Source of the DNA: Candidatus Sulfopaludibacter sp. SbA3
GTDB lineage: Bacteria > Acidobacteriota > Terriglobia > Bryobacterales > Bryobacteraceae
Direction of reading: 5' to 3'
Length of the DNA stretch: 48,912 nt
NCBI GenBank assembly: GCA_945893365.1
Contig: CAMDED010000045.1
Location: forward strand, 1-48,912
Below, piece after piece: positions 22,944 to 26,612 of the stretch (positions are counted from its first letter, which is position 1; each line of letters starts with the position of its first letter). The notes below the pieces were generated by a model that ran no database searches, had not been told where the DNA came from, and worked only from the letters and a program-made list of their open reading frames with translations. The position numbers and the translations under genes are program-made.

Positions 22944-23618
22944 ATGGATGAATCCGAAAGCACGGGTCCGGCCGTATCCTCGGCGATGGCGCCTGCCGCA
23001 CCACCTTCCGCAAAGCCGGGTTCCTGCATTCCGATGCCTGCCCGGGGCGGCGTAGATTCGCGCTGGGTCGAATTGATTCACCGCATCGCGACGGGCCAAC
23101 AGGAAGCGCTCGGAGACCTCTACGACCAGACCAATCATCTGGTGTACAGCGTCGCCCTTCGGATACTGGGAAACACGGCCGACGCCGAGGAAGCCACGCT
23201 CGACGCGTATTCGCAAGTGTGGAGGACGGCGGCGTCCTACCAGATGAGCCGCGGCACCGCGATCGCCTGGCTGATGACGATTGCGCGCACGCGTTCGATG
23301 GATAAGCGCCGTTCCCGCGCGACCAGAAACAACCGCGAAGAACCGCTCGACCTCAAGACCTATGAATTCCCGTCGCCCGCCGGGGACCACTCCGTGTCGT
23401 TCGACATGGAGCGCAGGGTCCAGTCGGCTCTGTCGGAGCTTGCGCCCGAGCAGAGGCAGGCGATTGAGATGGCCTATTTTTCCGGATTCAGCCATTCGGA
23501 GCTGGCCTTGAAACTGGGGGAGCCGCTGGGAACGGTCAAGACACGCATTCGGCTGGGGATGATCAGGTTGAGGGCTCTGCTTGCGCCGCTCGAACCCGGG
23601 GAGAACTGGAGCAGATGA
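22944..23618 (+). CDS. ECF RNA polymerase sigma factor
   Basis: A 224-aa group 4 sigma factor. Region 2 is LYDQTNHLVYSVALRILGNT with DAEEATLDAYSQVWR, which binds the -10 element and core polymerase. Region 4 is LSELAPEQRQAIEMAYFSGF with ELALKLGEPLGTVKTRIRLG, a helix-turn-helix for the -35. The first about 45 residues are an unusual Pro/Ala/Ser-rich extension; later ATG codons at 22986 or 23034 could be the real start. The layout resembles the SigK/ECF-ChrR pairing. It is coupled by ATGA to the ChrR-like anti-sigma gene and follows three secreted-protein genes, which may report envelope or oxidative stress. Confidence 0.88.
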   Translation: MDESESTGPAVSSAMAPAAPPSAKPGSCIPMPARGGVDSRWVELIHRIATGQQEALGDLYDQTNHLVYSVALRILGNTADAEEATLDAYSQVWRTAASYQMSRGTAIAWLMTIARTRSMDKRRSRATRNNREEPLDLKTYEFPSPAGDHSVSFDMERRVQSALSELAPEQRQAIEMAYFSGFSHSELALKLGEPLGTVKTRIRLGMIRLRALLAPLEPGENWSR

Positions 23619-24220
23619 CGAAGCACGAGACGGCGACCGTCGAGATCGTTGAGCGCGTGAGTCTGTATGCGCTTGGTGCGCTCGACGAGGCCGAGGCGCG
23701 TGAGTTCAGCGAGCATTTGATCGCCGGTTGCGCGGCGTGCGCCGCCGAGGTGCGCGCCATGCAAGAGACGGCGGCGCTCATCCCGATGGGCCTCGACACC
23801 GCCCGGCCCGGCGCCGCGGTTCGCGAGAAGCTGTTCGAAAGGATCGGCAGCGCCGGTACGCCCCCTTTTAAGGTGGTCCGCGAAGGGGAAGGGGACTGGC
23901 ACGCCCTTCCGTTTCCCGGTGTTACGGTGAAGCGGCTCCATCACAACCGGGGCGGCGACATCACGATGCTGATTCGCATGGAACGCGGCGCGAAGTTCCC
24001 CGGCCACCCTCACAGGCACGGAGAGCATTGCTACGTGCTTGAGGGGGATATTCATTTCGGCGATCTGGTCATGGGGCCGGGCGATTATCAATGGGCGTCC
24101 GGCGAGACGGATCACGTCACGAGCTACACAGGGAACGGCTGTCTGCTGCTCATGATTGTGAGCGAAGCGAACGCGAAACTGGCAGCGCCGCGGCCGGCTT
24201 GGTCAAGCGAAAGCCGGTAA
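23615..24220 (+). CDS. ChrR-like anti-sigma factor with cupin domain
   Basis: A 201-aa protein with an N-terminal zinc-binding anti-sigma (ZAS-like) part: SEHLIAGCAACAAEV has the HxxxCxxC signature (residues about 29-36). The C-terminal half is a cupin with a likely metal site: PGHPHRHGEHCYVLEGD, where H, H, E and H line up with ChrR cupin ligands, then MGPGDYQWASGETDHVT. In ChrR of Rhodobacter the ZAS part holds the sigma factor and the cupin senses singlet oxygen or peroxides. The ATG overlaps the sigma gene (ATGA). The selenoprotein peroxiredoxin gene lies about 0.9 kb further on but is on a separate transcript. Confidence 0.85.
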   Translation: MTKHETATVEIVERVSLYALGALDEAEAREFSEHLIAGCAACAAEVRAMQETAALIPMGLDTARPGAAVREKLFERIGSAGTPPFKVVREGEGDWHALPFPGVTVKRLHHNRGGDITMLIRMERGAKFPGHPHRHGEHCYVLEGDIHFGDLVMGPGDYQWASGETDHVTSYTGNGCLLLMIVSEANAKLAAPRPAWSSESR

Positions 24221-24376: not shown

Positions 24377-24952
24377 CTAACCAAGGCGGAGCGTGTCAAG
24401 CTTCTCCTCTCCGGTACGCCAAAGCGCGGCGCCGGTCCAGCCGTAGTGGAAGCCGCTCCAGAGGGTTGCGGCCGCGGACAACCAGACGGACGGCATGGCG
24501 AGAGGCCCGGCGATTTCGGGCGCGGCGTTGGCCGCGAGAACAGTCACGACGCACACAATCTGGAGGAAGGTGCTCAGCTTTCCCCACACGCTCGGAGGGA
24601 ACTTCTTGCGACCGGAAAGCCGCCGGGCGGCCCCGGACGCGGCGAGAATCAGAATGTCGCGGCCGAAAACAATCCCCACGAACCACTTCGGCAGGCTGCC
24701 GGCAACGGCTAGGGTAAGGAAAACGACGCCGAGGAAGATCTTGTCCGCGATGGGGTCGAGATATGCGCCGGCCGCCGTCACTCCGCCGAAACGCCGGGCG
24801 ACCATGCCGTCGATGGAATCGGTGGCGGCCGCGGCGGCGAAGATAGCCGCCGCCAACACATGCTCGCCGCGAAGGATGGCGTGTGAAACGAATGGCGCCG
24901 CGATGACACGGACCATCGTGACAATGTTCGGAAGGTTGAGCCAGTCCCGCAT
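24377..24952 (-). CDS. CDP-alcohol phosphatidyltransferase (PgsA-like)
   Basis: A 191-aa polytopic membrane enzyme. The family signature DG..AR....G....D..D is present as [20 protein letters not shown] followed by DPIADK (residues about 45-72). This superfamily swaps CMP on CDP-diacylglycerol for an alcohol; PgsA makes phosphatidylglycerol phosphate. Around it are hydrophobic helices ([29 protein letters not shown]). The start ATG 24952 has GAGGGA a few bases upstream. Whether it makes PGP or cardiolipin cannot be told by eye. It is divergent from the selenoprotein gene. Confidence 0.82.
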
Positions 24953-25089
24953 GCTTCCCTCGATTCTACCCGACGGCGCAGGGCGGCTCTCCGGTTTTCC
25001 GAGCGGAAGCTCCGGCGGGTTCCGGTGGCCGGTTGCCGGGGCGCTGCCATCGGTCCCCGGCGGTGGTACCCTCGGACGCAGGAGACTCT

Positions 25090-25599
25090 ATGCGAAACAC
25101 CTCTCTGCTACTGTTGTTTACCGCGTTCGGCCTGCAAGCCGCGACGCACCTGAAGGTGGGCGACACCGCCCCCGATTTCACACTTCCCTCGACAGCCGGC
25201 AAGCCCGTGAAGCTTTCCGACTTCAAGGGCAAAAGGAACGTGGTCCTCGCGTTCTTCCCCGCCGCATTCACCGGTGGCTGAACCAAGGAAATGGCGGGAT
25301 ACCAGGCTGGTATCCAAAAATTTGCCGACACCGAAACCGAAGTGTTCGGAGTCAGCACCGATAACACCCCCTCGCAAAAGGTGTTCGCGGAGCAGTTGAA
25401 ATTGAGTTTCCCCATCCTCAGCGATTTCGTAAACCGGAAAGTATCCACCGACTACGGCGTGTTGATTGCCGACCGCGGCATCTCCAGCCGCACGACGTTC
25501 GTGATCGATAAAGAGGGCAAGATTACGTTCCTAGAAGAAGGCAGCTCGGCCGTCGATATCACGGGCGCCGCAACCGCCTGCAGCAGACTCAAGCATTAG
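25090..25599 (+). CDS. Selenocysteine peroxiredoxin (AhpC/TSA family) with in-frame TGA
   Basis: Two adjacent open frames in the same phase, split only by a TGA at 25279-25281, form one 169-residue peroxiredoxin. It has a signal peptide ([18 protein letters not shown]) and the fold start [18 protein letters not shown]. The peroxidatic motif PxxxTxxC reads PAAFTGG-U, with the TGA exactly at the Cys position (residue 64). After the TGA come [34 protein letters not shown] and a conserved Arg ([12 protein letters not shown]). The only downstream cysteine, C164 near the C-terminus, could be the resolving residue. A perfect 8-bp stem-loop follows the TGA at SECIS distance. AGGAGA precedes the ATG. 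It probably reduces peroxides in the periplasm. The alternatives are a sequencing error or a pseudogene, but position, SECIS-like hairpin and intact frame all favour Sec. Confidence 0.82.
25297..25315 (+). promoter_or_regulatory. Candidate bacterial SECIS hairpin
   Basis: Arms GGATACCA (25297-25304) and TGGTATCC (25308-25315) are perfectly complementary around a GGC loop; if the top A-U pair opens, the loop is AGGCU. The stem begins 15 nt after the UGA codon, in the window used by SelB for selenocysteine insertion, and the loop carries the guanines typical of bacterial SECIS. Confidence 0.7.
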
Positions 25600-25607
25600 A
25601 CCCGGGA

Positions 25608-25634
25608 GGGCGTCCGTTGGAACGGCGGACGCCC
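25608..25634 (+). terminator. Hairpin terminator after the selenoprotein gene
   Basis: Arms GGGCGTCCG and CGGACGCCC form a perfect 9-bp GC-rich stem with a 9-nt loop, starting nine bases after the stop. The tail (CTTCTC) is only weakly pyrimidine-rich, so it may be Rho-assisted. Confidence 0.55.
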
Positions 25635-25709
25635 CTTCTCGCACATCCGGCTTCTTCCTCAATAATTGGTGGTGATGCAACGCACGCCGGGAAGTGTCAG
25701 TATCGTCTT

Positions 25710-26612
25710 ATGCTACCGCGAAGAACTCTGCTGACCTTACCAGCATCCGCCGCCCTGGCCGTTCAAGCGCAAGCGCCGCCGGGAACGCCGAAGATGCACC
25801 TATGTATTCATCAGACCACCTCCGCCGCGGCGGGGTACAGGAAATCGCTCGAGGGGTATGCCAAGGCGGGCATCCGGTATGTGGAGGCGATCCCCGCGCA
25901 TGTCGACGAGTTCGTAAAACAGGAGGGCATGCCGGCTGCCCGAAGGCTCCTGGCAGACCTGGGAATCAAGGCTGCGTCGAGCGGGGGCGTGCGCGGCCTG
26001 GCGGAGCCGAATCCCAAGCGCGCGGAGGCGATCGAGCAACTGAAAGCGCGCGTGGCCATCTGCGCGGAACTCGGCGTCGACCGCATGGTGTGTCCGTGCG
26101 GCACGACCGAGAAGTACACGCTCGACGACTACAAACGGGGAGTTGAGAATCTGAGGGAAGCCGGAGACATCGCAAAGCCCCACGGCGTGGCCTTGATGCT
26201 CGAGTTCATGCGCGGGTCCACGTTCATCGGAACTCTGCCCACGGCGCTCGATATGACGCGCCGCGCCGCTCATCCATTCGTTAAGCCGATGTTCGATTTC
26301 TATCATTTCTGGGCCGGTCTCAGCCGCTTCGAGGACATCGAACTGATCCGCGAAGGCGAGATCCATCACGTCCATTTCCAGGATGTGCCCAATATTCCTC
26401 GCGAGATGCTAGACAACGGCACGCGGGACGTTCCGGGCGACGGCGTCTGCCCGCTCGAAAAAATCCTGCGGGCGCTCGACCGCAAAGGGTACCGGGGTCC
26501 GATTTCGGTCGAGTTGTTCTATCCCCAATTGCAGAAGGGCGATCCGTACGAGGTGGCCTCGCGGATACGCCGGCAGTCCGACCCGATTATGCGGCGCGCG
26601 GGTGTGGCTTGA
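25710..26612 (+). CDS. Exported sugar phosphate isomerase/epimerase-like TIM barrel
   Basis: A 300-aa AP-endonuclease-2/xylose-isomerase-like TIM-barrel protein. The N-terminus MLPRRTLLTLPASAALAV is a twin-arginine-type leader. Barrel strands with metal-ligand hints include VALMLEFMRGS, VKPMFDFYHFWAG, IHHVHFQDVP and GPISVELFY, containing the Glu, Asp, His and Glu residues expected for a divalent metal. ATG 25710 is preferred because an earlier start would add 31 unrelated residues ahead of the leader. Its stop overlaps the TTG of the next gene as TTGA. Such proteins are common in sugar and inositol use in Acidobacteria and Planctomycetes; the substrate is unknown. Confidence 0.8.
   Translation: MLPRRTLLTLPASAALAVQAQAPPGTPKMHLCIHQTTSAAAGYRKSLEGYAKAGIRYVEAIPAHVDEFVKQEGMPAARRLLADLGIKAASSGGVRGLAEPNPKRAEAIEQLKARVAICAELGVDRMVCPCGTTEKYTLDDYKRGVENLREAGDIAKPHGVALMLEFMRGSTFIGTLPTALDMTRRAAHPFVKPMFDFYHFWAGLSRFEDIELIREGEIHHVHFQDVPNIPREMLDNGTRDVPGDGVCPLEKILRALDRKGYRGPISVELFYPQLQKGDPYEVASRIRRQSDPIMRRAGVA

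Follow-up and report, generated by a model that had tools for sequence, protein, structure and literature searches.

The TGA-containing gene at positions 25090..25599 (forward strand) of the window, by which we mean the whole 48,912-nucleotide stretch of Candidatus Sulfopaludibacter sp. SbA3 analysed here (contig CAMDED010000045.1, assembly GCA_945893365.1), very probably encodes a selenocysteine (Sec) peroxiredoxin of the AhpE-like branch of the AhpC/TSA superfamily. A selenocysteine peroxiredoxin had been proposed in an earlier note on this DNA, and the proposal is supported by the codons occupying the site in relatives, by a covarying hairpin, by the sel genes of the same genome and by selection acting past the TGA.

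The reading frame extends from an ATG at 25090 to a TAG stop (25597-25599) and, with TGA read as Sec, specifies 169 amino acids. A probable ribosome-binding site read from the sequence (AGGAG, 25080..25084) lies 5 nt ahead of the ATG; a simple scan of 24900-25800 for promoter- or terminator-like sites found none. The frame includes exactly one in-frame TGA (25279..25281, residue 64), which closes the active-site motif P57-A-A-F-T61-G-G-U64 (Pro57 at 25258..25260, Thr61 at 25270..25272). As the earlier note had recognised from the PxxxTxxC motif, this is exactly where peroxiredoxins carry the peroxidatic cysteine. The ordinary open reading frame list splits the gene into two pieces (25033-25281 and 25291-25599), a fate also anticipated in that note for standard callers. 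The read-through protein matches PF00578 (AhpC-TSA) with 129.3 bits against a cut-off of 26. TGA terminates 9 of 29 hand-picked long open reading frames in the window and is thus an ordinary stop here; on this ground a reassignment of TGA in this genome was rejected.

In relatives, the position of residue 64 is occupied by TGA or by a cysteine codon, not by random codons. Among the matches listed from a search of 201 whole genomes, most rows have exactly one TGA, and the same TGA is present in two congeneric genomes (92-93% identical). A first set of 131 loci (31 returned by searches and 100 fetched), in which 142 frames were read, has TGA at the site in 113 frames, TGC in 24, TGT in 4 and CGC in 1. 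Two of these TGC frames belong to other, PrxQ-like genes, and the CGC (Arg) codon was seen in a truncated fragment lying beside an intact TGA copy (L117). A scan of a species-genome collection yielded at least 586 confirmed relatives; in the best 80 of these loci (84 frames) the codon is TGA in 74 frames, TGC in 9 and TGT in 1, and 79 of the 80 record titles are acidobacterial. The exception, titled Bacillota bacterium (L221), holds an otherwise acidobacterial family sequence and is possibly a mislabelled metagenome bin. Merging both sets, which overlap in genomes, at an alignment score of at least 330 gave 216 frames, 185 of them distinct; frames scoring below 330, including the CGC fragment, were dropped before counting. 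The 185 distinct frames, nearly all acidobacterial, comprise 158 with TGA and 27 with TGC or TGT.

Of the 128 genomes chosen for holding a strong match, 105 have the TGA in the corresponding column. When 99 genomes were drawn evenly from the phylum, 10 of them gave a match of at least 150 bits; all ten have TGA there, they span 8 family codes, and one, the window genome, also has a Cys paralogue. Some match at 1e-30 was obtained in 52 of the same 99 genomes, many being weaker peroxiredoxins, some with TGA. The Sec-peroxiredoxin family is spread over Acidobacteriota, yet is far from universal in the phylum. In several genomes, G268, G223 and G257 among them, more distant AhpE-like peroxiredoxins also have a single in-frame TGA; they match only to about profile position 133 and suggest further Sec peroxiredoxin families in the phylum. 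Viral contigs gave 126 pattern matches, none of which was confirmed as a relative.

The TGA is followed, within the coding sequence, by an 8-bp hairpin with the loop GGC (25297..25315; stem 25297-25304/25308-25315) that begins 15 nt past it. The earlier note had taken this stem for a bacterial SECIS; it folds as described there and covaries in the TGA relatives. The loop, called G-rich in that note, starts with G both in the window and in 162 of 162 distinct TGA sequences; the stem on its own is moderately stable (-12.6 kcal/mol, z -2.52, equalled by 4 of 200 shuffles). By itself the window hairpin is moderately unusual against shuffles, and its status beyond chance rests on the relatives. Covariation was assessed in 67 TGA rows, picked for diversity from the 162 distinct ones, and in 27 distinct Cys rows, hairpin columns being numbered from the T of TGA as 1. 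In the TGA rows 95.2% of the cells of the five core pairs are formed. C-G stands at pair 24-32 in 47 rows and U-A in the other 20, so that no row breaks it; at pair 23-33, A-U is found in 60 rows and U-A in 4, the remaining 3 having no pair, and breaks number ten at pair 22-34 and three at pair 26-30. The alignment includes coupled replacements in which a tyrosine TAC and a glycine GGT give way to TAT and GAT, or to TTC and GGA. Since a silent change in one codon is paired with an amino-acid change in the other, these replacements are unexplained by protein selection alone.

In the 27 Cys rows, by comparison, 41.5% of cells are paired, a value that shuffles equal, and there is no covariation above shuffles. 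With RNAalifold, 4 pairs are predicted for the TGA rows and none for the Cys rows, and 4 or 5 of the 5 core pairs are found in 160 of the 162 distinct TGA sequences (the other two have only 3) versus 2 of the 27 Cys sequences. A Cys copy using TGC (L047) keeps the complete hairpin core and another Cys row (L043) keeps 4 of the 5 pairs, a sign, for L047 at least, that Sec gave way to Cys recently. In the L070 tandem, a TGA copy and a TGC copy of the same peroxiredoxin stand together and the hairpin is present in the TGA copy only.

The genome from which the window comes (7.88 Mb, 96.65% complete) has the machinery that the earlier note had named as worth looking for, each component scoring over its curated cut-off: selA (492 bits, cut-off 268), selB (381 bits, cut-off 242), selD (370 bits, cut-off 125) and, for selC, a tRNA-Sec (71 bits, cut-off 47) whose anticodon is TCA according to ARAGORN and which both ARAGORN and Rfam type as tRNA-Sec. 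Another hit above this cut-off is a tRNA-Ser for ARAGORN, and Rfam places it in the general tRNA family. Because the hairpin is conserved and the sel gene set is complete, SelB-dependent insertion of Sec can be inferred. Two further frames of this genome are likely selenoproteins: selD itself (L058, contig C81:892-1815), which carries its own TGA near the start of its reading frame, and a formate-dehydrogenase-like frame (L247, contig C56) with a TGA and a Tat-like N-terminus (RRTFLK), matched piecewise below the TIGR01591 cut-off. A formate dehydrogenase over that cut-off in the same genome has no TGA. Both TGAs are followed by 8-bp hairpins with A-U closing and a loop starting with G, and the window hairpin has the same plan. 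The genome also encodes a Cys form of the peroxiredoxin (L002, contig C77:10002-10457), which is 70% identical and without the hairpin.

Co-occurrence with the machinery extends to the relatives. Since background matches to the SelB profile occur in every one of the 201 genomes, counting was confined to matches over the cut-off; selB falls below it in about 29-30 of the 201, and sub-cut-off matches near 1e-55 occur both in TGA and in Cys genomes. Assigned by genome, the 134 frames scoring at least 330 divide as follows: TGA copies accompany selA and selB in 94 cases, one of them in 11 and neither in 3, and the corresponding values for Cys copies are 19, 1 and 6. Thus selA or selB is over the cut-off for 105 of 108 TGA copies versus 20 of 26 Cys copies (Fisher p 0.0017, uncorrected for relatedness). 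The three TGA genomes with neither gene over the cut-off are 73%, 80% and 85% complete. The machinery nearly always accompanies the TGA form, yet many genomes with the machinery hold the Cys form. Both genes are present alongside 19 of the 26 Cys frames, and the window genome itself also has a Cys form, so the machinery does not force the use of Sec.

Protein-level selection continues beyond the TGA: against the two congeneric genomes, dN/dS for this part of the gene is 0.072 and 0.077. The mature peroxiredoxin domain (residues 19-169, 25144..25596) was modelled by AlphaFold2 with a mean pLDDT of 96.9. Its structural neighbours by Z are headed by AhpE of Mycobacterium tuberculosis (Z 26.2, 1.4 Å over 150 residues, 37% identity), AhpE entries filling the first seven rows, followed by BcpB (25.3) and Sulfolobus Bcp4 (25.0). 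In the Foldseek E-value order Sulfolobus Bcp1 comes first and AhpE second, and in a sequence ranking among solved structures 2ywn comes first and AhpE second. The threonine of the PxxxTxxU motif is Thr (152) or Ser (6) in all 158 Sec forms and Thr in 27 of 27 Cys forms. The proline is kept in just 96 of the 158; Val stands in its place in 51 of these Sec frames versus 1 of 27 Cys frames, an excess that may be explained by relatedness. Arg134 (25489..25491) is invariant in 65 of 65 rows and corresponds to mature R116, the number of the arginine of AhpE mutated in entry 4xih.

The only other cysteine of the window protein besides the residue 64 site, Cys164 (25579..25581), is part of the last helix, which covers residues 140-150 of the mature model. 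The earlier note had singled out this lone C-terminal cysteine as a possible resolver, and its conservation is consistent with such a role: of the 185 distinct frames, 184 have a cysteine here, namely 157 of the 158 Sec frames and all 27 Cys frames. The one exception is an early-terminating Sec frame, the second of the L119 pair. In 181 of the 185 distinct frames this is the only cysteine after the active site, and none of the 185 has a cysteine within 7 residues after it.

Export was also part of the earlier proposal. Residues 1-18 (25090..25143), with a hydrophobic stretch of 12 residues behind Arg2, form a probable signal peptide whose cleavage point is inferred. According to a simple rule of our own, a hydrophobic stretch ahead of the domain is present in 209 of 216 frames; K or R precedes it in 195 of the 214 frames with a start codon, and a lipobox-like pattern was seen in 6 frames. 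The signal-like segment recurs consistently in the family and suggests export of the window peroxiredoxin, most likely into the periplasm, which on this sequence pattern we consider likely. Exported selenoproteins as such are not new, as formate dehydrogenases illustrate, and the formate-dehydrogenase-like frame of the window genome also has its Tat-like N-terminus. Neighbouring pairs of TGA peroxiredoxins occur in L109, L119, L131, L132, L139, L155, L160, L188, L195, L210 and L231, some of which are from the same genomes. Judged by eye, one copy is without a signal-like segment in L109, L131, L132/L210, L139, L195, L155 and L160, whereas in L119, L188 and L231 the segment is found in both. 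Motifs of the NTPGU or STPGU kind are frequent in the other copy of such pairs.

Sec is the commoner state among the relatives found, and Cys forms, mostly without the hairpin, appear at several places in the tree (FastTree, 191 family rows and 3 outgroup rows). On this outgroup tree 18 Sec/Cys changes are needed, versus 24-29 in 200 label shuffles; without the outgroup the number is 17. The state at the root is tied. Resolved to Sec, it implies 16 Sec-to-Cys changes inside the family; resolved to Cys, it implies 10 Sec-to-Cys changes inside the family and 7 Cys-to-Sec changes, one of them at the family base. Both the direction and the number of the changes are uncertain.

The gene neighbourhood was surveyed in 80 loci and the window, in flanks of up to 6 kb that were often ended by the contig, adjacent same-strand frames being excluded. 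No conserved neighbour gene was found in these flanks, the commonest shared family occurring in 6 of 81 loci, and with no conserved partner gene there is no pointer to the reductant. In the window, an ECF sigma factor gene followed by a gene for a zinc-finger/ChrR-cupin protein (22944-24220) ends about 0.9 kb upstream of the peroxiredoxin, with a CDP-alcohol phosphatidyltransferase gene on the other strand in between. This layout is that of sigma/anti-sigma pairs for singlet-oxygen and peroxide responses. The pair is absent from the 22 shared neighbour clusters listed.

One alternative to selenocysteine is a pseudogene or a sequencing error, in which only the part up to the TGA or the part from 25291 would be made. 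Formally the gene is indeed two open reading frames. However, one and the same TGA is shared by the two congeners and by 105 of the 128 genomes with strong matches, so that a sequencing error is untenable; together with a dN/dS of about 0.07 past the TGA and the covarying hairpin, this leads us to reject a pseudogene as well. We regard this alternative as scarcely credible. It is also very improbable, if somewhat less so, that a suppressor tRNA charged with Cys decodes the TGA or that some other standard amino acid is inserted there. Cysteine is the alternative residue at the site, and tRNA-Sec-like tRNAs charged with Cys or Ser exist in some bacteria, with allo-tRNAs reported in Acidobacteria as well (PMC7609411, accessible part). 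Against such a decoding stand the presence of selA and selD, the typing of the tRNA as tRNA-Sec by two methods, the use of TGC or TGT by Cys copies, which mostly lose the hairpin, and the normal use of TGA as a stop elsewhere in the window.

A more serious competitor accepts selenocysteine and disputes the Cys164 step only, so that its odds overlap those of the explanation we favour. The enzyme would then work with a single redox residue (1-Sec), as AhpE does with its cysteine: an external thiol would reduce the selenenic acid, and Cys164 would have a structural or intersubunit role. The M. tuberculosis AhpE, titled 1-Cys, ranks near the top of the solved structures in both sequence and fold comparisons, and the lack of a conserved partner gene for a thioredoxin-type reductant points the same way. 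The near-invariance of Cys164 and its position as the only cysteine after the active site in almost all frames are nevertheless what is expected of a resolver, and we consider the 1-Sec scheme rather unlikely. Cys164 is probably the resolving cysteine for oxidised Sec64.

The mechanism favoured here, that of a Sec enzyme with a resolving cysteine, can be outlined as follows. SelB and Sec-tRNA-Sec would read the TGA at residue 64 with the aid of the hairpin 15 nt downstream, and the N-terminal signal would direct the enzyme out of the cytoplasm, most likely into the periplasm. There Sec64, close to Thr61 and Arg134, would reduce peroxide and become a selenenic acid, as family chemistry suggests; Cys164 would then form a selenylsulfide with Sec64, and a thioredoxin-like reductant of the envelope could reset the enzyme.

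Several known systems resemble the window protein in part. PrxU (NF040737), which we take to be the NCBIfam name of the Eubacterium acidaminophilum enzyme, shares Sec at the peroxidatic TxxU position in an AhpC/TSA fold. The E. acidaminophilum enzyme is cytoplasmic. The window protein differs from PrxU in its score (66.1 bits against a cut-off of 270), in its signal-like N-terminus and in being nearer to AhpE and Bcp. The E. acidaminophilum Sec peroxiredoxin is cited as coming from a strict anaerobe in the reference list of PMC13188914. AhpE of M. tuberculosis (PDB 1xxu, 1xvw and 5id2) is among the closest folds and shares the arginine at mature position 116, but entries 1xxu and 1xvw are titled 1-Cys whereas the window protein has Sec, a conserved cysteine in the last helix and a signal-like segment. 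Bcp/PrxQ-type enzymes (Sulfolobus Bcp1 and Bcp4, M. tuberculosis BcpB) follow close behind AhpE, with Z from 25.3 to 24.8. PrxQ-type enzymes often carry their resolving cysteine within 7 residues after the active site, a feature that all 185 frames of the window family lack. In human PRDX5 the second cysteine lies about 100 residues after the peroxidatic residue. The window family likewise has its second cysteine about 100 residues on, in the last helix, as in Prx5-type atypical 2-Cys enzymes; however, AhpE and Bcp rank first and no Prx5-named row appears among the 50 fold matches listed, which does not speak against kinship.

Prx-SUH (NF045827) and other peroxiredoxin-like selenoproteins (UxxC, UxxS) also have Sec in a peroxiredoxin-like fold, but the window protein reaches only 44.1 and 42.9 bits against the Prx-SUH cut-off of 298, and the motif of Prx-SUH is given as CxxU in a table of PMC13188914. 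No model among the 18950 of NCBIfam reaches its cut-off on the window protein. As the open reading frame list in addition breaks the gene at the active site, it is probably mis-annotated in many genomes.

Acidobacteriota include members that respire oxygen. For the window genome alone, aerobic life is supported by gene content, namely three COX1-family genes over the cut-off, a family that also takes in nitric-oxide reductases. The earlier note had framed Sec-peroxiredoxins as known in a few anaerobes; this framing does not fit what is a recurrent acidobacterial family, found here in a genome with these three genes.

Sec peroxiredoxins are well established, with 91 proteins from 78 organisms in a 2016 survey (PMC5029168, accessible part), and are treated in a 2026 review (PMC13188914). 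That review, in its accessible text, describes selenoproteins as rarely retained by aerobic bacteria, and the string "Acidobacteri" is absent from its main text. The accessible part of a 2006 survey gives peroxiredoxin and HesB-like proteins as examples of Sec yielding to Cys as oxygen rises; for peroxiredoxins it counts 12 Sec forms, no Sec-to-Cys and 5 Cys-to-Sec events, and for Acidobacteria 4 selenoproteins in 3 families (PMC1794560). Three selenoproteins were found by deep-Sep in Occallatibacter riparius (PMC12013277, accessible part). The exported Sec peroxiredoxin family may be among these acidobacterial selenoproteins listed earlier. In the accessible parts of the open-licence literature searched, neither an exported AhpE-like Sec peroxiredoxin nor its spread across Acidobacteriota was found described. 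What is new is most likely the exported subfamily and this spread, Sec-peroxiredoxins as such being already known.

Aerobic bacteria are thought to use selenium enzymes rarely, yet a gene hidden by its TGA recurs in many Acidobacteriota. We propose, tentatively and at somewhat less than even confidence, that the exported Sec peroxiredoxin could be one principal reason why this large phylum, which lives mainly in soil and has members that respire oxygen, keeps selenocysteine. It would form a peroxide shield of the envelope, built on an AhpE scaffold with a resolving cysteine in the last helix; some lineages would hold tandem exported and cytoplasmic Sec copies, and Sec would have reverted to Cys repeatedly, in contrast to the one-way picture published for peroxiredoxins. 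The reason for retaining a selenol in an enzyme beyond the cytoplasm thereby becomes open to test.
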